Below, in pieces: positions 13,266 through 51,316 of a DNA stretch of 51,316 nucleotides; the first letter of the stretch is position 1; every line of letters begins with the position of its first letter. The stretch is from contig CAIMWH010000300.1 in the NCBI GenBank assembly GCA_903845065.1, forward strand, positions 1-51,316. Direction: 5' to 3'. Source of the stretch: an uncultured Rhodospirillales bacterium. GTDB taxonomy: Bacteria > Pseudomonadota > Alphaproteobacteria > Acetobacterales > Acetobacteraceae. The position numbers and the translations under genes are program-made. The notes under the pieces are model-generated. The model was given only the letters and a program-made list of their open reading frames with translations, was not told where the DNA came from and did no database searches.

Positions 13266-13518
13266 GGGGAGAAGGAAGGCGAGGGCTCTGCCCTCGACCC
13301 GCCAAGGGGCAGGGGCCCCTTGGATCCCGCTACTTAAGAGAGAATTCCTGGCGGGCGGGAGGGGGGCCATCTCGATGTTGCCAACTGCACGGTCGGCCCC
13401 CCTCCCGCCCACCAGGAACCTCTTAGGCATCGAGGTCCAGGGGCTCGGCCCGTCGCGCGAAGGCGCGCAACGGTCCTGGTGGGGTCGAGGGGCAAAGCCC
13501 CCGCCTTCCTTCCTCCCC
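13266..13518. repeat. Long imperfect palindrome between binding protein and permeases
   Basis: Almost the whole 275-base gap is an interrupted inverted repeat. The outer arms are 13266-13304 and 13477-13518 (GGGGAGAAGGAAGGCG at the left; CGCCTTCCTTCCTCCCC at the right). The inner arms are about 13342-13368 and 13395-13424 (GGCGGGCGGGAGGGGGGCC against GGCCCCCCTCCCGCCC). Each outer arm also contains its own small hairpin (GAGGGCTCTGCCCTC at left). Elements of this look are common between genes in Acetobacteraceae. In an operon it would form a very stable RNA stem and could protect the binding-protein message and lower permease expression. That role is inferred. Confidence 0.75.
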
Positions 13519-20410: not shown

Positions 20411-20468
20411 AGCAGTCTCCAATATCCGAAAATCGTCAACGCCAGACCCGTCGCGCGAACAAGTAGGA

Positions 20469-20547
20469 TTCACCACAGAGACGCAGAGGAAGATGAGAAG
20501 ACAAGAATACTGCTTTCTTCTCCGTGTCTCTGTGCCTCTGTGGTGAA
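20469..20547. repeat. Intergenic inverted repeat of the TTCACCACAGAG type
   Basis: Arms TTCACCACAGAG (20469-20480) and CTCTGTGGTGAA (20536-20547) are perfect reverse complements. The inner sequence continues the symmetry roughly (ACGCAGAGGAAG against CTTCTCCGTGTCTC). I recognise this as a dispersed repeat that occurs between genes in many unrelated bacteria. It lies between the thiolase and the MetY fusion, both on the - strand, and is distinctly less G+C-rich than its surroundings. Confidence 0.75.
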
Positions 20548-20568
20548 CCTTCCTGCTTCTTTACGGTG

Positions 20569-26639: not shown

Positions 26640-26990
26640 ATGAACGATGGCGCGGTACCGGACCTGACGGCGATCGACCCGCAGGAACTGGCGCGCGACT
26701 GGATCACGCTGTGGCAGAGCGAATTGGCGGCCCTGGCCACCGATCGCGAGGCGCAGGAGGCGTGGCAGACGTGTCTGGCGGTGTGGGCCGGCATGGCGAT
26801 GTCCATGGCGGCGATGCTGCCGCGCGGGGGGCATAGTGGCGCTGCAGGGGGAGGTCGGTCCGCTGATGCGGCGCGGCCCGCGGCCGCTGCTGCTGCACCT
26901 GATGCTCGCGACGCTGAAATCGAGCGCCTCGCCCGCCACATTGCCGAGCTTGAACGCCGCCTGGCCCGGCTTGAGCGGGGAGTGGAGTGA
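26640..26990 (+). CDS. Small coiled-coil protein, candidate PhaE-like subunit
   Basis: The 116-residue product has a Trp-rich helical N-terminus (ARDWITLWQSELAALATD, then EAWQTCLAVWAGMAMSM), an Ala/Gly linker and a heptad-patterned C-terminus (IERLARHIAELERRLARLE). Class III PHA synthases need a PhaE partner that has Trp-containing helices and a similar terminal coiled coil, but PhaE is about three times longer. The last 125 bases overlap the start of the synthase gene in another frame. I did not find a close named family; the PhaE idea rests on layout and pattern only. Confidence 0.6.
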   Translation: MNDGAVPDLTAIDPQELARDWITLWQSELAALATDREAQEAWQTCLAVWAGMAMSMAAMLPRGGHSGAAGGGRSADAARPAAAAAAPDARDAEIERLARHIAELERRLARLERGVE

Positions 26991-28029
26991 TGCGGCCACG
27001 GTGCCACCCGAGGCGCGGCTGCGCGAAAATGCCGGGCTGATCGCGGGAGTCGCCGCCTACCGCCGGCACCCCTATCGGCGCGATCTGCCCGATCCCACCG
27101 CGATATGGCACGAAGGCGAAACCCGGGTGATCGACTATGCGCGGCCGGATGCCACCGGGCCGGTGGTGCTGTTCGTTCCCAGTCTGGTGAACCGCGCCTA
27201 CGTGCTCGATCTCGCCGAGGGCCGTTCGATGATGCGGTTTCTTGCCGCCCAGGGGCTGCGGGTGCGGCTGCTCGATTGGGGCTGGCCGGGGGAGGCCGAG
27301 CGGAAGTTTGGCCTCACCGACTACATCGCCGGGCGGCTGGAGCGCGCGGTGATGGCGTGTGGCGGGCCGGTGGTGCTGGCCGGGTATTGCATGGGCGGGC
27401 TGTTGACGCTGGCGCTGGCGCAGCGGCGGCCAGACCTGGTTTCGGCCTTGGCGCTGCTGGCGACGCCGTGGGATTTCCATGCCGGGGATGACGGCCAGGG
27501 CCGCGCGCTGGCGGCGCAGTTGTCGTTGCTGGAGCCGATGCTGGGCCTCGCCGGCACGCTGCCGGTGGACCTGCTGCAATCGCTGTTCGCGCTGCTCGAT
27601 CCGTGGGGGATCGCCAGCAAGTATCGCGGCTTCGCGAGGATCGACCCCAATGGCGAGCGGGCGAAGCTGTTCGTGGCGCTGGAGGACTGGCTGAATGACG
27701 GCATTCCGCTGGCCGCCCCGGTGGCGCGGGAGTGCATCGGGCAGTGGTATGGCGAGAATGCTCCGGCGCGGGGGGCGTGGCGGGTGGCCGGGCAGGTGGT
27801 GAACCCGGCGGCGCTGGACATGCCGTCATTCGTGGCGGTGCCGGCGAAGGATCGCATCGTGCCGCCGGAAAGCGCGCTGCCGTTGGCGGCCATGCTGCGG
27901 GGTGCCGTGCTGCACCAGCCGCGCGCCGGCCATATCGGCATGGCCGCCGGAGGCACCGCCGAAGCCGCTTTGTGGCAACCCTTGCTGACCTGGTTCCGAA
28001 GCCTCTCAGCCGCCCCCAGGCACGGATAA
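26866..28029 (+). CDS. Short polyhydroxyalkanoate synthase-like protein (PhaC)
   Basis: The 387-residue product has the PHA synthase lipase-like box GYCMGG with nucleophile C175, plus the Asp of VPAKDRIVPP and the His of RAGHIGM. It lacks the long N-terminal domain of class I enzymes; its length resembles class III PhaC. The chosen ATG follows a GGGGGAGG site 11 bases upstream and gives the start MRRGPRPLLLHL. A GTG at 26836 or a GTG at 27001 are alternatives. It is divergent from phaR. The TAA stop coincides with the edge of a T-rich dispersed element. Confidence 0.85.
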   Translation: MRRGPRPLLLHLMLATLKSSASPATLPSLNAAWPGLSGEWSDAATVPPEARLRENAGLIAGVAAYRRHPYRRDLPDPTAIWHEGETRVIDYARPDATGPVVLFVPSLVNRAYVLDLAEGRSMMRFLAAQGLRVRLLDWGWPGEAERKFGLTDYIAGRLERAVMACGGPVVLAGYCMGGLLTLALAQRRPDLVSALALLATPWDFHAGDDGQGRALAAQLSLLEPMLGLAGTLPVDLLQSLFALLDPWGIASKYRGFARIDPNGERAKLFVALEDWLNDGIPLAAPVARECIGQWYGENAPARGAWRVAGQVVNPAALDMPSFVAVPAKDRIVPPESALPLAAMLRGAVLHQPRAGHIGMAAGGTAEAALWQPLLTWFRSLSAAPRHG

Positions 28030-28066
28030 AAGTTTTTTGTTTCTTTTTTTCAAAAAAGAAAGCGCT
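28030..28066. repeat. T-rich 37-base element, half-palindrome copy 1
   Basis: Starts directly after the phaC stop with AAGTTTTTTGTTTC and ends in AGCGCT. It contains an internal hairpin TTTCTTTTTT / AAAAAAGAAA. It is identical over 37 bases to 40669-40705. It sits between the convergent phaC and GT4 genes and could act as a terminator in either direction. Confidence 0.8.
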
Positions 28067-28068
28067 CG

Positions 28069-29085
28069 CTACTTGCCAACCTTGTCCAGAAAAGCCCGCC
28101 ACTGCTCCACCACCGCCGGCTCGGCAAACGCCGCCTCATAGCGCGCCCGCCCGTTCACGGCGAAGCGCGCCGCCAGCGTCGGGTCATCACGCAACCGCCC
28201 GATCGCATCGGCCAATGCAGTCGGGTCCTCATGCGGCACCAGCAGCCCATCCCGCCCGTCCAGCAATAGTTCGGCCGGCCCGTCGGCCGCCACCGCCACC
28301 AGGGGGCGGCGGGCGGACCAGGCTTCGATCACCATGTTGCCGAGCGGTTCGACGCGCGACGAGCAGACGAAGATATCGGCCGCGCGGAGCAGGGCGCCGG
28401 CATCGGTGCGCCAGCCGAGGAAGCGCACCCGGTCGGCCACCCCTTCGCGCCGGGCGAGGGCTTCGAGGTTGGCCCGTTCGGGGCCTTCGCCGGCGATGGC
28501 GAAGATGGCGCCGGGCAGGCGGGGCAGGGCGCGGATGGCGGTGTCAAACCCCTTGTCGGGGTGCAGGCGGCCGAGGCCGAGGAGCAGGGGGGCGGCCTTC
28601 GGCAGATCCGCGGCGGGCGGAGTGTCGGCGAAGTCGGCGACGAAGTTGGGGAGGTAGTGGGCGCGTTCGGCGGCCCAGCCCTGGCTGCGCAGCCAGGTGG
28701 TGATGCCTATGGTGTTGCCGACGAGGTGGTCGCAGGCGCGGTAGTAGCGCAGGTCATAGTAGCCACCGAGGCGGCCGACGTTGACCCAGTCGCCGCGGGG
28801 GAGATGCATGTTGGCGCGGCTCATCCAGGCCACCGCGACGCGGGGCGCGAAGGCGCGCAGGGCGCGGGCGAGGCGGGGGCGGGTGAGGATGTCGAGCCGG
28901 GTGCCGAAGCGCAGTTCCACCGGGTTCATCCCGGCATCACGCAGGAGGGTGGCGCGGGCCGGGTTGGTGCGGATGACGGGCAGCACCGCATCGCCGGCTC
29001 GTTGCTGGGCGAGGCAGAGGCGTTCGTAGAAGAGTTCGGCGCCGCCATGCACGGCCCCGGCCATGATGTGGGCGACGCGGGTCAT
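28069..29085 (-). CDS. Glycosyltransferase family 4
   Basis: A retaining GT-B glycosyltransferase likely to act in lipopolysaccharide or capsule assembly at the inner face of the membrane. The 338-residue product opens RVAHIMAGAVHGGAELFYE, has the GT4 domain GLGRLHPDKGFDTAI, and shows the EPLGNMVIEA motif (E-x7-E) typical of the donor site. The ATG at 29085 overlaps the end of the GT9 gene by four bases (ATGA), so the two are coupled. The frame extends further upstream but that part is antisense shadow over GT9. Confidence 0.92.
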   Translation of the reverse strand: MTRVAHIMAGAVHGGAELFYERLCLAQQRAGDAVLPVIRTNPARATLLRDAGMNPVELRFGTRLDILTRPRLARALRAFAPRVAVAWMSRANMHLPRGDWVNVGRLGGYYDLRYYRACDHLVGNTIGITTWLRSQGWAAERAHYLPNFVADFADTPPAADLPKAAPLLLGLGRLHPDKGFDTAIRALPRLPGAIFAIAGEGPERANLEALARREGVADRVRFLGWRTDAGALLRAADIFVCSSRVEPLGNMVIEAWSARRPLVAVAADGPAELLLDGRDGLLVPHEDPTALADAIGRLRDDPTLAARFAVNGRARYEAAFAEPAVVEQWRAFLDKVGK

Positions 29086-37566: not shown

Positions 37567-38951
37567 GCGGCGTGTTCGATGCGGTGATCATTGGGGCCGG
37601 GCCGGCGGGGATGGCGGCGGGTGCCGTGATGGCGGAGCGGGGCGCTCGGGTGCTGGTGCTCGATGAGCAGGCGGCGCCGGGGGGGCAGATTTATCGCGGG
37701 ATCGAGGCGATGCCGGCCGCACGGGTGGCGGCGATGGGGGCGGACTATGCCGCGGGGGCGGCGCTGGTGGCGCGGTTCCGGGCTTCGGGGGCGGAGTATC
37801 GGCCGGGGGCGATGGTTTGGCAGGTGGTGCCGGGGGAGGAGGGGCACGAGGTGTGGTTCAGCATCGCGGGGAAGTCGCGGTGTGTGGTTGGGAAGTCAGT
37901 GCTGGTGGCTGCGGGGGCGATGGAGCGGCCGGTGCCGGTGCCGGGGTGGACGTTGCCGGGGGTGATGGGGGCGGGGGCCGTCCAGGTGTTGTTGAAGGCG
38001 GGGATCGGGGCGGAGCGGTTGGTGATCGCGGGGGCGGGGCCGCTGGTGCTGCTGCTGGCCGCGCAGTGCCTGGCGCTGGGGGTGCGGCCGCTGGCGGTGC
38101 TGGATACGACGCCAGCGGGGAATTTCGCCGCCGCGTTGCCGTTGCTGCCGGGGGCGGTGCGCGGGCGGGGGCTTGGGTATTTGTGGAAGGGGTTGCTGTT
38201 GCAGGCGCGGCTTCGCTTTGGCGGGGTTCGCGTGGTGCGGGTGACTGATGTTGTGCTGGAGGGGGCGGAGGCGGTTCGGGCGGTTTCGTTCCGCGCCGGC
38301 GGTCAGGTGCAGCGGATCGAGGCGGATATCGTGGCGCTGCATGAGGGGGTGATCCCGGCGCAGCAGATGACGCGGGCCTTGGGGTGCGCGCACAAGTGGG
38401 ATGAGGGGCAGCGGTGTTTTCGGCCGGTGCTGGATGGGTTCGGCAATACGAGTGTCCATGGTGTGCTGGTCGCTGGGGATGGTGGTGGGATCGGGGGGGC
38501 TCGGGCCGCGGCGCAGGCGGGGGTTGTGGCGGGGGCGGAGATGTTGCGCCGGGCTGGGCGGGTGGATGGGGTGGGGCGGGATGCGGTGGCGGGGCCGGCT
38601 TTGCGGGACCTTGCCGCCGAGGTGGCGGTGCGGCCGTTTCTCGATCGGTTGTTCCGGCCGGCCGGGTTGCCGGGTGATGAGGTGGTGGTGTGCCGTTGCG
38701 AGGAGGTGACCGCCGGGGATATCCGGGCCGCCGCCGCGCAGGGGGCGCAGGGGCCGAACCAGGCGAAGGCGTTCCTGCGTACCGGGATGGGGGCGTGCCA
38801 GGGGCGGATTTGCGGGCCGATGGTCAGCGAGATCATGGCCGGGGCGCGTGGGGTTTCGATGGATGAGATTGGCTATTACCGCATTCGGGCGCCGTTGAAG
38901 CCGATCACGGTGGGCGAGTTGGCTGCGGCGGGAGACGATGGCGATGATTGA
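37563..38951 (+). CDS. FAD-dependent dehydrogenase, HcnB/opine oxidase A type
   Basis: The 462-residue product is the second flavoprotein of the complex. It starts with FDAVIIGAGPAGMAAG (FAD), has a middle NAD-like segment (ERLVIAGAGPLVLLLAA) and a C-terminal BFD-like [2Fe-2S] region with C-x-C in VVCRCEEVTAGDI and C-x4-C in ACQGRICGP. This layout matches opine oxidase subunit A and HcnB. It is in tight overlap with neighbours (ATGA upstream; 14-base overlap downstream). The order here (C-, A-, B-like) differs from hcnABC, so cyanide production is not favoured. Confidence 0.88.
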   Translation: MSGVFDAVIIGAGPAGMAAGAVMAERGARVLVLDEQAAPGGQIYRGIEAMPAARVAAMGADYAAGAALVARFRASGAEYRPGAMVWQVVPGEEGHEVWFSIAGKSRCVVGKSVLVAAGAMERPVPVPGWTLPGVMGAGAVQVLLKAGIGAERLVIAGAGPLVLLLAAQCLALGVRPLAVLDTTPAGNFAAALPLLPGAVRGRGLGYLWKGLLLQARLRFGGVRVVRVTDVVLEGAEAVRAVSFRAGGQVQRIEADIVALHEGVIPAQQMTRALGCAHKWDEGQRCFRPVLDGFGNTSVHGVLVAGDGGGIGGARAAAQAGVVAGAEMLRRAGRVDGVGRDAVAGPALRDLAAEVAVRPFLDRLFRPAGLPGDEVVVCRCEEVTAGDIRAAAAQGAQGPNQAKAFLRTGMGACQGRICGPMVSEIMAGARGVSMDEIGYYRIRAPLKPITVGELAAAGDDGDD

Positions 38952-40668
38952 TGTTGGGCAGGCCGGTATCTGGGTCGCGGCATTCGGGGCCGCGCTGGAG
39001 CGGCGGGATGCCGGGGCGGTGGCGGGGCTGTTCGTGGCCGACGGGCATTGGCGCGACATCGTGGCGTTCAGTGGGGACATGACCTCGGTGCAGGGGCGCG
39101 CGGCGATCGCCGGGTTGTTCGGGCGGACGATGGCCGCGACGGAGCCGCGTGGGGTGCGGGTGGCGGCGGGGCGGACGGCGCCGCGGCGGGTGATGCGGGC
39201 CGGGCGGCAGGTGATCGAGGTGATTTTCGCGTTCGAGACGGCGCAGGGGCGGGGGCATGGGGTGGCGCGGTTGGTGCCGGATGGGGACGGGGTGCGGGCC
39301 TGGACGGTTTCGACTTCGCTCGAGGCGCTGCATGGCGATGCGCCGGAGGACAGCGCGCGCCATGCCGGGGAGTTGGATTATGCGCGGGATTTCGGGGGGG
39401 AGAACTGGCTCGACAAGCGGGAGCGTGCGCGGGCGTATGCCGATCGCGACCCCACTGTGCTGGTGGTGGGGGGCGGGCAGGCCGGGCTTGGCATTGCGGC
39501 GCGGTTGACGCGGTTGGGGGTGGATACGCTGATTGTCGATCGGGAAGCCCGGGTGGGGGACAATTGGCGGCGGCGCTATCATGCGTTGACGTTGCACAAC
39601 GAGGTGCATGTCAATCACCTGCCGTTCATGCCGTTTCCGCCGAGTTTTCCGGTGTTCATCCCGAAGGACAAATTGGCGAACTGGTTCGAGGCATATGTCG
39701 ATGCGCTCGATTTGAATTTCTGGACCGGCACGGCGCTGGAGCGTGGCCGGTGGGATGCGGCCGCCGGGTGCTGGGAGGTTTCGTTGCGGCGGGCGGATGG
39801 GTCCGCGCGGGTGATGCGGCCGAAGCACCTGGTGTTCGCCACCGGGGTGAGTGCGATCCCGAAGCGGCCGGAGATGCCGGGGTTGGCGGATTTCGGCGGG
39901 ACGGTGCTGCATTCGGGAGAATATTCCGAGGGGGCGGCGTGGCAGGGGCGGCGGGCCCTGGTGCTGGGGACCGGCAATAGCGGGCATGATGTGGCGCAGG
40001 ATTTGTACTGTGCGGGCGCGGACGTGACGATGATCCAGCGCAGCCCGACCTATGTGGTGAGTTTGCGCGAGGCGCAGTCGGTCTACGCGATCTATACCGA
40101 GGGGTTGCCGATCGCGGACTGTGATCTGTTGGCCACCGCGATGCCGTATCCGGTGTTGCGGGAGGCGTATCAGTTGTCCACCGCGGCTTCCCGGGTGGCG
40201 GATGGGGCGCTGCTGGAGGGGCTTGCGGCGCGGGGGTTCCGGCTGGATTTCGGCGAGGACGCGACGGGGTTCCAGATGAAATATCTGCGCCACGGCGGCG
40301 GGTATTACTTCAACGTGGGCTGTTCGGATCTGATTGTGGATGGCGCGATCGGGCTGTTGCAGTACGACGATATCGAGCGGGTGGTGCCCGAGGGGGTGCG
40401 GCTGCGCGATGGGCGGGTGGTGGAGGCGGAGTTGCTGGTGACGGCGACCGGGTATCTCAACCAGCAGGACACGGCGCGGGCTTTTCTCGGCGACGATGTG
40501 GCGGACAGGATCGGCCCAGTATGGGGTTTCGATGACGGCGGCGAACTGCGCAACATGTGGCGCCCGACGGCCCAGGAAGGCCTGTTGTTCACCGCCGGCA
40601 GCCTCGCCCAGTGCAGGATTTTCAGCCGGTTCCTGGCACTCCAGATCAAAGCCAGACTCAACGGATAG
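38938..40668 (+). CDS. Flavin monooxygenase with NTF2-like N-terminal domain
   Basis: The 576-residue product has a SnoaL/NTF2-like domain (about 1-130, beginning IWVAAFGAALERRDAGAV) followed by an FMO-type oxygenase. The FAD motif is VLVVGGGQAGLGIAARL (about 174-190), the NADPH motif LVLGTGNSGHDVAQDL (about 341-356), and TATGYLNQQ near the end. Such fusions are common in catabolic clusters. The 14-base overlap with the dehydrogenase suggests they act on one compound. Either ATG 38938 or ATG 38944 may be used. The TAG stop coincides with the edge of a T-rich palindrome. Confidence 0.85.
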   Translation: MAMIDVGQAGIWVAAFGAALERRDAGAVAGLFVADGHWRDIVAFSGDMTSVQGRAAIAGLFGRTMAATEPRGVRVAAGRTAPRRVMRAGRQVIEVIFAFETAQGRGHGVARLVPDGDGVRAWTVSTSLEALHGDAPEDSARHAGELDYARDFGGENWLDKRERARAYADRDPTVLVVGGGQAGLGIAARLTRLGVDTLIVDREARVGDNWRRRYHALTLHNEVHVNHLPFMPFPPSFPVFIPKDKLANWFEAYVDALDLNFWTGTALERGRWDAAAGCWEVSLRRADGSARVMRPKHLVFATGVSAIPKRPEMPGLADFGGTVLHSGEYSEGAAWQGRRALVLGTGNSGHDVAQDLYCAGADVTMIQRSPTYVVSLREAQSVYAIYTEGLPIADCDLLATAMPYPVLREAYQLSTAASRVADGALLEGLAARGFRLDFGEDATGFQMKYLRHGGGYYFNVGCSDLIVDGAIGLLQYDDIERVVPEGVRLRDGRVVEAELLVTATGYLNQQDTARAFLGDDVADRIGPVWGFDDGGELRNMWRPTAQEGLLFTAGSLAQCRIFSRFLALQIKARLNG

Positions 40669-40736
40669 AAGTTTTTTGTTTCTTTTTTTCAAAAAAGAAA
40701 GCGCTTTCTTTTCTGAAGAAAAGAAACAAAAGACTT
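40669..40736. repeat. 68-base near-perfect T/A-rich palindrome, full copy
   Basis: Left half AAGTTTTTTGTTTC to AGCGCT (40669-40705) is identical to 28030-28066. The right half mirrors it (AGCGCTTTCTTTTC ... GAAACAAAAGACTT), centred at 40702.5. It begins right after the stop codon of the monooxygenase gene and ends 9 bases before the stop of the convergent methyltransferase. A bidirectional terminator is likely. Confidence 0.85.
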
Positions 40737-40745
40737 TTGTCCGTT

Positions 40746-41604
40746 TTAGGGCTTTACGAATTTCAGGAAGAACTCGTCCTTGGGCTGCGGCGGGTCGGGC
40801 GTGTTCTTGTCGCGCGGGTCATTGGGATTGCGCAGGAAGTTGCCGACTTCGACGAGTTTGAAGCCGGCGGCTTCGACTTCCTGGCGCATGAAGGCTTCCT
40901 CGATGCGGTGCAGGGTGCCGGCTTCGGAGATGCCGGTGCCGGGGGCGGCCGGAGTGATCGCCGATGACGTAGAGGCCGCCGTGCTTGAGGGCGCGGAAGG
41001 TGGCCTGGTTCATCGCGTTGCGATCGACGCCCATGTGCCCGAGGTCATGATAGTTGAACATCAGGGTGACGAGATCGAGCTTCGCGTCGGCGAGTTCGGG
41101 GGGCATCGGGTCGGCGAAGGGGCGCGGTACGGCGACGATGGGGGCGGCCTGGACGCCGGCGGCGTGCATGCGGGCCTCGCGGTCGGCCAGCATGATGGGG
41201 GAGGTGCGGGGCGGGCCGGCGGGGGCCGCGGCGGCGGCCGGGGCAGGGGGGAGGTTGGGGTTCGAGTTGCCCTCGGGCGCGGCGGGGGCGGGGATGGGGC
41301 GGCTCGGGTCACGCGGCTGGCTTTGGCCATAGACGTGGCCGGTGGGGCCGATGGCGCGGGCGAGGAGTTCGGTGGTGTAGCCGCCGGCGGCGCTGAGATC
41401 CATCGCGGTGATGCCGGGGTGGATGGCGATGAAGGCGAGGATGCGTTCGGGCTTGCGGCGCAGATCGTTGGTGCGGTCGGCCGGCGTGCGATCGGGGGCC
41501 GCGATGATCTGGCTGATCTGGGCTTCGGTGATGGGTTGGGCGTGGGCCGTGGTGGCGCCGAGAAGGAGGCCGACGGCGGCGAGGAGGGAGGTTCGGCGGT
41601 GCAT
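40746..41604 (-). pseudogene. Exported class I SAM methyltransferase-like gene with a frameshift
   Basis: The product starts with a signal peptide (HRRTSLLAAVGLLLGATTAHA) and contains ITAMDLSAAGGYTTELLA, a SAM-binding motif, and MFNYHDLGHMGVDR. After YVIGDHSGRP the frame is lost. The other frame carries on with the expected end (GTGISEAGTLHRIEEAFM, then FLRNPNDPRDKN, ending FLKFVKP). The break is at a run of five G (40941-40945, C on the coding strand), consistent with one extra base. Total length 859 is one over a multiple of three. The intact protein would be 285 residues. A sequencing error is possible. Confidence 0.8.
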
Positions 41605-41641
41605 CGGAGTTCCCTTGCGGTGGGCGGTTTGCCGTTGCTCC

Positions 41642-41681
41642 ATCCTCACCCCGGCCTTCTCCCGCAAACGCGGGAGAGGGG
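41642..41681. repeat. Dispersed hairpin of the CCTCACCCCGGCC...GGGAGAGGG type
   Basis: TCTCCCGC-AAAC-GCGGGAGA (41658-41677) is a perfect hairpin, preceded by CCTCACCCCGGCC. This resembles a widely scattered intergenic repeat of many bacteria. It lies just downstream of the monooxygenase gene on the - strand, ahead of the methyltransferase. Confidence 0.65.
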
Positions 41682-41686
41682 GCGGG

Positions 41687-43287
41687 CTAGGATTTCGCCA
41701 TGACCAGGCCCTTGTATCCCTCGGTTGCGACTTCGGTGCAAATGTCACGGTAGTGGGCCATGCCGCCGGCATAGGGCATGAAGCGGCGGGGTTTGCCGGG
41801 GACGTTGGCGCCGAGGTACCAGGAGTGCCCGGCTTGGGGGAGCAGGGTGGCATTGGCGGCTGCGTCCACCTGGTTGGACCAGGCGGTGGCGGCTTCGGGT
41901 GTGGCCTCGATGGTGGCGATGTGGTTCGCGCGCAGATGGGCGATGCAGTCGGTGATCCACTCGACGTGCTGTTCGATGGCGACGGGCATGTTGGCGAGGA
42001 CGGAGGGGCTGCCGGGGCCGGTGATGGTGAACAGGTTGGGGAAGCCGGGGATGCCGAGGCCGAGATAGGTTTCGGGGCCGGCGCGCCAGGCATCGCGGAG
42101 GGCGAGGCCGTTGCGGCCGGTGAGGCCGAGGGCGAAGAGGGGGCCGGTCATGGCATCGAAGCCGGTGGCGAAGACGATGATGTCGAGCGGGTAGTCGGCT
42201 TCGGCGGTGCGGATGCCGGTGGCGGTGATGCGTTCGATGGGGGTGCGGCGGAGATCGACGAGGCTGACGTTGGGGCGGTTGAAGGTGTCGAAGTAGTTGT
42301 CGTCGATGGGGGGGCGCTTGGCCGCGTAGGGGTGGTCGATGTCGGCGAGGATGGCGGCGGTGGCGGGGTTGCGGACGATGCTGCGGATTTTCGCCTTGAG
42401 GAAATCGGCCGCGGTGTCGTTGGCTGCCTTGTTGGTCAGCAGGTCCTTGAAGGTGGCGCGGAATTGCAGGCCGCCCTTGGCCCAGGCGGCTTCGTAGAGG
42501 GCATCGCGTTCCGCGGGGGAGACGTCGGCCACGTTGCGTTCGGCGATGCGGAAGGGGTGGCCGTTGGTGGTGGATTTCATCACCGCGCGGATTTCGTCCT
42601 GGTGGGAATGGACCCAGGCGCGGAACTCGGGGGTGAGGGGGGCATTGTGGGCGGGGACGGAGTAGTTGGCGGTGCGCTGGAAGACGGTGAGGTGGGCGGC
42701 TTGGGCCGCGATGACCGGGGCGGCCTGGATGCCGGTGGAGCCGGTGCCGATCTGGCCGACGCGCTTGCCGGTGAAATCGACGCCGCCGTGGGGCCATTGG
42801 CCGGTGTGGTACCATTGGCCCTGGAAGTCGGGCAGGCCCGGGATGTTGGGGACGTTGGCCGAGGAGAGGCAGCCGACGGCGGTGATGAGGTAGGTGGCGG
42901 TGAGGGTTTCGCCTGATGTGGTGGTGACGTGCCAGAGGTTGGTTGCTTCGTCGTAGCGGGCCGCGGAGACACGGGTGTTGAAGCGGATGTCGGGGCGGAG
43001 GTTGAAGCGGTCCGCGACGTGGTTCAGGTAGCGCAGGATTTCGGGTTGCTGGGGGTAGCGTTCGGACCAGTCCCATTCGTCGAGCAGTTCGGGGGAGAAG
43101 CCGTAGCAGTAGGAGTGGCTTTCGGAATCGCAGCGCGCGCCGGGGTAGCGGTTCCAGTACCAGGTGCCGCCGACGCCGTCGGCGGCCTCCAGGACGGTGG
43201 TGGCCAGGCCGAGGCGGTCGCGCAGGCAGTGGAGTTGGTACATGCGGCGAAACCGGCGCCTACGATGATCGCGTCGAGCGCCGGCAT
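41687..43287 (-). pseudogene. Baeyer-Villiger-type flavin monooxygenase with an N-terminal frameshift
   Basis: An FMO/cyclohexanone monooxygenase-like gene. The start MPALDAIIVGAGFA is in one frame (ATG 43287). MYQLHCLRDRLGL and the remainder, with GGTWYWNRYPGARCDSESH, GQIGTGSTGIQ and FATGFDAMTG, are in another. One G is missing near 43244-43248: GCCGCATG on the coding strand where GCCGGCATG would give the usual GAGFAGMYQLH. Length 1601 is two over a multiple of three. Intact it would be 533 residues. If the break is real, the FAD motif is disconnected and the protein inactive. It follows mmsA by 3 bases, so it is the second gene of that operon. Confidence 0.85.
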
Positions 43288-51229: not shown

Positions 51230-51261
51230 TGCCCGTCATCCGAAAGGACGGCCGGGGAGCA

Positions 51262-51295
51262 AGCGCTTCTTTTTGAAAAAAGGAAGCAAAAACTT
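51262..51295. repeat. T-rich element, half-palindrome copy 3 (diverged, right half)
   Basis: AGCGCTTCTTTTTG to CAAAAACTT is a right-half copy of the palindrome at 40669-40736. It lies 32 bases after the hydroxyacid dehydrogenase stop and is followed by TTTTATCC, the mirrored GGATAA edge seen in the other copies. Likely a terminator. Confidence 0.75.
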
Positions 51296-51316
51296 TTTTA
51301 TCCAATGGCTTCGCCC

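Follow-up and report, generated by a model that had tools for sequence, protein, structure and literature searches.

A modular, AT-rich palindromic repeat at gene 3' ends in Acetobacteraceae, with stop codons inside its edge at a minority of gene ends

The window, that is, the whole stretch of 51,316 nucleotides analyzed here, is one entire contig of a draft genome (5.9 Mb in 380 contigs, hereafter the source genome), in which the GC content was 67% over the stretches fetched. It contains an 86-base palindrome (40660–40745) that occupies the whole space between two converging genes. The palindrome is centered on AGCGCT and consists of two T-rich arms (40660–40702 and 40703–40745, 88% complementary) placed head to head with inverted edges; based on a repeat search and arm sorting, it was classified as a type A element, without a strand of its own. 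A 68-base palindrome with the same center, which the original prediction placed at 40669–40736, is present as described and forms part of this larger structure. On the left, the TAG stop (40666–40668, plus strand, defined by the ORF and the tails of relatives) of an FMO-like monooxygenase gene (38938–40668) lies inside the edge of the element. On the right, the TAA stop (40746–40748, minus strand, found by ORF inspection) of a convergent tail ending in FFLKFVKP adjoins the opposite edge. Because the upstream frame of this tail is broken, the gene went undetected by the gene finder, and the distance of 81 nt given for this place in the gene table is false. The interruption concerns the minus strand at 40746–41100, with a C-terminal ORF of 47 residues (40746–40889) and an apparent upstream part located in another frame inside ORF 40819–42093; the break is either real or an assembly error. 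From the look of its sequence, the product may be methyltransferase-like; ORF 40819–42093 had no match in Pfam and NCBIfam.

Another copy (28022–28066, plus strand, repeat search and arm sorting) is a solo arm, which is composed of the edge CGGATAAAAG and one arm and ends at AGCGCT. The within-window repeat search aligned it with the type A element from 28022 and 40661 onward over 45 nt with one difference (98%), and 40669–40705 is identical to 28030–28066 base for base, as had been claimed. The edge of the solo arm includes the TAA stop (28027–28029, plus strand, defined by the ORF and the tails of relatives) of a PhaC-like alpha/beta hydrolase gene (26836–28029), for which the best protein family was TIGR01836, although its 143.8 bits fell short of the 365.3 required. 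The TAG stop (28069–28071, minus strand, gene finder) of a convergent glycosyltransferase-like gene is located 8 nt from the inner end of this arm. The third copy (about 51258–51316, minus strand, repeat search) matches at 86% over 29 nt; its arm is of a different kind, in which the T-run is shorter, and continues into GGCTTCGCCC, with which the GGCTTCGCC linker of a type B element begins. This copy and the solo arm were originally viewed as half elements ending at the core; the solo arm does end there, but the contig end (51316) truncates the third copy, and calling the latter a half is therefore unsupported. The repeat was also described as occurring at three gene ends and supplying stop codons; two stops are indeed inside the edge, whereas the gene preceding the third copy stops at a TGA (51229) outside the repeat. 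A core 25-mer had three matches in the window at up to 3 mismatches, compared to an average of 0.00 in 100 shuffles. No Rfam family was detected at gathering scores in 27500–51316. Two other inverted repeats lie between genes of the window. The first has 32-nt arms (20457–20488 and 20528–20559) that are 78% complementary and separated by 39 nt; the second is GC-rich, with 24-bp arms (13345–13368 and 13395–13418) that are 96% complementary and separated by 26 nt, and the genes on both sides of it are on the minus strand.

Both stop codons, TAA at 28027–28029 and TAG at 40666–40668, fall within CGGATA(A/G)AAG, and Gly is the last residue before the stop in each protein, in agreement with the original prediction. 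Since this edge recurs in many other copies, it belongs to the repeat. We compared the C-termini of the two proteins with those of their relatives. The monooxygenase set comprised 35 relatives with identities of 39–75%, derived from 23 of 80 loci of one search and 20 loci of another, two rows being one gene; among the closest were genome bins assigned to Rhodospirillales (best, 71%) and to Acetobacteraceae, which, along with the recurrence of the type B element in Pseudoroseomonas, points to Acetobacteraceae as the family of the source genome. The window protein ends in QIKARLNG and its tail is shorter than in all 35 relatives (which end in REAGLV, REEGLVT, TESGIAPR, etc.); it retains a conserved Gly and lacks the residues that follow this Gly in the relatives. 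The end of the PhaC-like protein, RSLSAAPRHG, also differs from that of each of the eight relatives compared (RGLETGR, RALDSRR, etc.). The repeat arm was absent from the 110 bases after the stop in all 35 monooxygenase relatives and in the eight PhaC-like ones. Thus, for both genes, relatives without the element end elsewhere, and an ending at the same residue, which would have spoken against the prediction, was not seen for these two genes. In two PhaC-like relatives (L202 in G002 and L203 in G008), the translated matches hold two TGA and one TAG codons in frame.

Searches of the source genome with a 74-mer gave 141 first-look candidates, 40 of which were scored and yielded 70 matches; a 25-mer at up to 3 mismatches had 72 matches, and the same pattern read backwards had none. 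The palindrome is a real member of a dispersed and modular repeat family, as predicted. Further analysis used 60 stretches fetched around copies plus the window (61 stretches, 670 kb), a sample selected for holding copies. When arms were sorted by orientation, 87 elements were obtained (31 type A, 29 type B and 27 solo); a faster scan, which was used for the placement counts, gave 86 (31, 28 and 27). The repeat unit is the arm, which consists of an edge (A)CGGATAAAAGTTTTTTG, a hairpin NTTCTTTTTT-TC-AAAAAAGAAN', then GCGC, CGCC or CCCC, and an outer end that is purine-rich on the other strand. This unit is found singly, as a head-to-head pair (type A) or as a back-to-back pair that flanks a second palindrome (type B). 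In type A, the edges CGGATAAAAG point outward and the arms are joined at GCGC, with a length of 65–72 bp (one copy is cut by a contig end). In type B, the same arms are reversed, face out and are joined by ATCCGATGGCTTCGCC...GGCGAAGCCATCGGAT, which makes an element of about 110–130 bp, with 108–116 bp between the outer ends of the arms (163 in one case). The linker is different in a congener (G004) and in Pseudoroseomonas, which keep the arms. Several type A copies (e.g., L124, L127, L128 and L143) carry an extra outer module similar to GGACACAACGGA or CACAGGCACGGA in their flanks, so the arrangement given above does not cover the whole mosaic. A reversed-sequence control of the fuzzy arm search gave 30 halves in 2.28 Mb versus 321 real ones; because reversing a pattern that is both AT-rich and palindromic does not give a clean control, some solo arms may be false. 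The reversed BLAST control was clean. A strict AT filter misses most type B elements (5 versus 28 in the source genome with the scan used). The repeat also breaks assemblies, with 16 of the 86 source-genome elements located within 100 nt of a contig end.

We then related the elements to genes called by a simple codon-usage gene finder, which places starts only approximately and overlooks broken genes. None of the 86 elements in the source genome had its middle in a called gene, and only 1 of 122 in the congener overlapped one. Among gaps of at least 60 nt in the source genome, an element was present in 27 of 37 convergent, 34 of 160 tandem and 4 of 81 divergent ones. In the congener, the corresponding values were 19/56, 28/270 and 4/115 in 72 stretches taken almost regardless of copies (contig C3 was known to hold one), and 33/76, 43/369 and 8/167 in all 99 stretches. 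The difference between convergent and divergent gaps was significant in both genomes (Fisher p 2e-14 in the source genome and 2e-7 in the 72 congener stretches). In absolute numbers, source-genome copies are more frequent in tandem (34) than in convergent (28) gaps. Median distances on the stop side were 15, 12 and 21.5 nt for A, B and solo elements in the source genome (7.5, 19 and 46.5 nt in the congener), and on the start side 67, 94 and 80 nt (44, 89 and 115 nt). Solo arms in tandem gaps had no significant orientation (6:2 and 11:7 in the two genomes, with 10 and 9 solo arms near ends left out). Copies lying away from gene ends had been named as evidence against a gene-end repeat; the counts favor gene-end placement, with a copy in few divergent gaps (4 of 81 in the source genome).

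The stop codon is inside the conserved edge at 9 of 34 edge-facing gene ends (within 45 nt) in the source genome and at 12 of 35 in the congener, one of the latter (L318) resting on a poor arm. At another 3 and 10 edge-facing ends, respectively, the stop is 5–8 nt ahead of the arm, directly against the edge. Inner-facing ends that run into the hairpin and stop at a TGA in the loop were also detected (4/54 and 2/58). Overall, 13 of 88 stop sides within 45 nt in the source genome and 14 of 93 in the congener have the stop inside the element; thus, the element can supply a stop codon, as had been proposed from the window, but this is a minority feature. Stop codon use near elements was shifted: TGA/TAG/TAA counts were 30/35/26 with an element versus 315/122/38 without one in the source genome (chi-square p 6e-11), and 56/23/23 versus 846/232/111 in the congener (p 5e-5), which is partly due to the edge itself. 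Inner-facing ends outside the element were rich in TAG in the source genome (26/50 versus 122/475 genes without an element; 13/56, a weaker signal, in the congener), which the edge does not explain. This excess (window and L120–L179) may be part of the purine-rich outer end.

To place these observations on orthologous genes, we used 140 reciprocal best pairs (at least 60% identity) between the fetched stretches of the source genome and the congener. The element was absent from both members in 108 pairs, present only in the source genome in 13, only in the congener in 11 and in both in 8. Tail lengths agreed within 2 residues in 93 of 108 pairs with neither, 7 of 13 source-only, 10 of 11 congener-only and 8 of 8 pairs with both (7 of these 8 had equal tail length). 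Compared with pairs having neither, agreement was reduced in the source-only group (p 0.010), and p was 0.13 when all one-sided pairs (17/24) were considered. Below 80% identity, tails agreed in 0 of 4 source-only pairs versus 27 of 37 with neither, and above 80% in 7 of 9 versus 66 of 71. The congener had TGA opposite a TAA or TAG of the source genome in 5 of 7 source-only pairs versus 18 of 80. The idea that the element sets protein ends is consistent with the two window genes, which end unlike their relatives, but not with several of these pairs: L152 (three ends) and L162 have the same final residue although the congener lacks the element, and L172 ends in GVEKG like its congener partner though only the latter was called an edge stop. 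At two gene ends, the two genomes contained different forms (type B versus A at L157, solo versus A at L150), which speaks for turnover at gene ends.

Among 310 arms from both genomes, 281 could be parsed by a simple pattern, and in these the base pair beside TTC/GAA in the arm hairpin was C-G in 140, T-A in 59 and G-C in 58; of the 24 others, 9 were G-T. The three states follow subfamilies and so represent few independent events, and template-switch correction of palindromes could be an alternative source of them. Folded as RNA, the type A element of the window reached −52.7 kcal/mol on the plus strand (shuffle mean −22.8) and −41.6 on the minus strand, and none of 200 shuffles was as stable on either. 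The solo arm and the third copy in the window folded no better than shuffles (z 0.42 and 0.95; third copy 0.34).

The original prediction also called the repeat a terminator. A scan detected no terminator-like site at two of the window copies. A strict test was passed by 4/86 and 10/91 element-bearing ends in the source genome and the congener, respectively, and by 12/466 and 19/1172 ends without an element; with a second code, the values were 7/86 and 8/91 versus 8/466 and 14/1172. Under loose rules (5 T in 8, gap 0–2, at least 3 G-C pairs), 17/86 and 19/91 ends with an element passed versus 31/466 and 55/1172 without one (p 5e-4 and 3e-7), so a terminator role is possible, though most element-bearing ends fail. 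The share of passes was highest in type A (10/32 and 8/21), in which the T-rich beginning of the second arm comes after the hairpin of the first; type B passed in 4/39 and 6/35 cases. By their sequence, some type A copies may terminate transcription, and most elements do not look terminator-like. Ordinary terminators with a GC-rich hairpin and a T-run occur elsewhere in both genomes.

It is possible, but in our view rather unlikely, that the repeat is mainly a family of (bidirectional) transcription terminators, whose overlap with stop codons is mere compactness. The position behind stops and between converging genes, the excess under loose rules, concentrated in type A, and the 8 of 140 orthologous pairs with an element in both genomes, 7 with equal tail length, fit such a role. 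However, 69/86 and 72/91 element-bearing ends fail the loose rules and 79/86 and 83/91 the strict ones; type B, which of the three forms is most strongly associated with converging genes, seldom passes; 24 of the 140 pairs have the element in one genome only; and the genomes have ordinary terminators elsewhere.

We further examined the occurrence of the repeat. At E 1e-6 or better, it was detected in 41 of 150 genomes, and 32 of 102 genera, of the family to which the source genome belongs, and a reversed query in 0 of 150. In a smaller survey at E 0.001, it was found in 11 of 36 genomes of the family and 2 of 24 from other families, both weak. One genome of the family (G107, 4.3 Mb) gave 1,248 first-look candidates for the 74-mer, compared to 141 in the source genome. 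In plasmids, the 74-mer had no match at E 0.01, and a 132-mer matched two Pseudoroseomonas records and one of Acidiphilium. On plasmid pL11-B of Pseudoroseomonas cervicalis, a match of 121 bp lies within 130 nt between two annotated converging oxidoreductase genes, with the architecture seen in the source genome; on pL11-A of the same species the match is between two same-direction genes. A 45-mer matched 28 plasmid records, from Bacteroides/Parabacteroides (22), Acinetobacter (3), Enterococcus (1) and Pseudoroseomonas (2); the first three groups were taken as AT-rich look-alikes. The 22 Bacteroides/Parabacteroides records match the arm at roughly 90% over 37–41 bases (e.g., NZ_CP072215.1, 29300–29338), possibly an unrelated AT-rich terminator.

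The repeat had been described as spreading or rearranging; the spreading can be deduced only indirectly. No clear target-site duplication was seen in 46 type A and 59 type B elements, the largest excess over mismatched flanks being 0.115 (A) and 0.113 (B), for 3-mers over many offsets. A search for Y1_Tnp (RAYT) transposases, the sole family searched, found none over the 23-bit cut-off in seven draft genomes, the one match of 22.5 bits being in G001. These two results argue against a neutral or selfish MITE-like repeat placed at 3' ends because insertions elsewhere were removed, a reading that we regard as doubtful. The presence of the element in one genome only in 24 of 140 pairs, the different forms found at L157 and L150, and the patchy range over genera are in its favor, and selection against insertion elsewhere could produce the 3'-end placement without any function. 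In the source genome, copies are nearer to the stop than to the next start, which is a point against it, though avoidance of promoters could explain this.

Several known repeats are similar in part. REP/BIME units, as presented in the available text of PMC3733652, are short palindromic sequences of high copy number, single or in inverted pairs, mostly in convergent or tandem gaps and near or overlapping gene ends. Our repeat resembles them as a high-copy, short palindromic intergenic unit that is single or in inverted pairs (31 A, 29 B and 27 solo of 87). It differs in being AT-rich, in having a T-run and a GGATAAAAG edge where those units carry a GTAG or CGTC tag, and in having a second palindrome as linker. 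According to the same available text, GTAG REP termini often provide a TAG stop codon, so the stop-supplying feature has precedent, and Acetobacteraceae are named among the families without CGTC repeats. An assignment to REP proper was considered and rejected: the copies have no GTAG or CGTC tag (the edge is GGATAAAAGTTTTTTG, and the other side is mostly GCGC, CGCC or CCCC, judged by eye in the copies viewed), and no Y1_Tnp match exceeded the cut-off in the seven genomes. Stem-loops of low-GC Firmicutes, as far as covered by the accessible part of PMC1590033, are likewise AT-rich, near stop codons, more frequent between converging genes and possibly bidirectional; their stems are flanked by A-runs on the 5' side and T-runs on the 3' side, in contrast to a dispersed repeat in a GC-rich host, and other bacteria are said there to lack such AT-rich structures. 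The MITEs NEMIS, ERIC, RUP and YPAL (PMC2229807, available portion) are also small palindromic repeats near genes, with RNA hairpins and fusions to reading frames; our repeat has no clear target-site duplication, a shorter type A and no copies inside genes in the source-genome sample. Finally, Lichenicola cladoniae, another member of Acetobacteraceae, has many predicted REP palindromes (6,569 in Table 3 and 1,369 in the text of PMC12306157, in its available portion), which come from a tool that counts palindromes broadly. In open-licence papers screened by title or abstract start, we found no description of this Acetobacteraceae repeat family. Compared with REP/BIME, the differences thus comprise the AT-rich arm that bears neither tag, the second palindrome, the absence of RAYT matches over the cut-off from the seven genomes searched, and the host.

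On balance, we lean toward the view that these are REP/BIME-like, AT-rich mosaic palindromes of GC-rich Acetobacteraceae that act as transcribed 3'-end barriers, with edge stop codons in a minority. The repeat is present in many copies and is modular, is located directly behind stop codons, and is rare in divergent gaps and in genes; one pair of the arm exists in three complementary states, and edge stops occur at a minority of ends. The elements would be transcribed at mRNA 3' ends, where types A and B would each fold into one long hairpin; such a barrier could protect the mRNA, separate converging transcripts and perhaps, in some type A copies, terminate transcription. As a role common to the elements, we consider a transcribed 3' hairpin the most probable. 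A copy arising in the last codons of a gene would place a TAA, TAG or TGA of the edge at the end of the protein, often as Gly-stop, and since the protein would end right there, the copy would do little harm and survive.

A bolder proposal, which seems improbable to us at present, is a family-wide mobile AT-rich module that supplies both a stop codon and a 3' RNA hairpin, has come to replace the usual terminators at many places where genes of Acetobacteraceae converge, and continues to move and re-form as A, B and solo copies, thereby resetting C-termini and mRNA ends together. A role at the DNA level is very unlikely. In this reading, AT-rich tracts that readily form cruciforms would, in a genome of 67% GC, take up supercoiling or serve as binding sites for a nucleoid protein where genes end. 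AT-rich palindromes in convergent gaps and the DNA roles proposed for REP/BIME in the available text of PMC3733652 and PMC12306157 are compatible with it, but source-genome copies are more numerous in tandem than in convergent gaps.

If the REP/BIME-like reading of transcribed 3'-end barriers is right, a large and apparently undescribed repeat family marks the 3' ends of genes in roughly one of every four Acetobacteraceae genomes sampled (41/150). It would also offer a natural test of REP-like protection or ending of mRNA, of the spread of palindromes without RAYT, and of repeats that reset protein C-termini.
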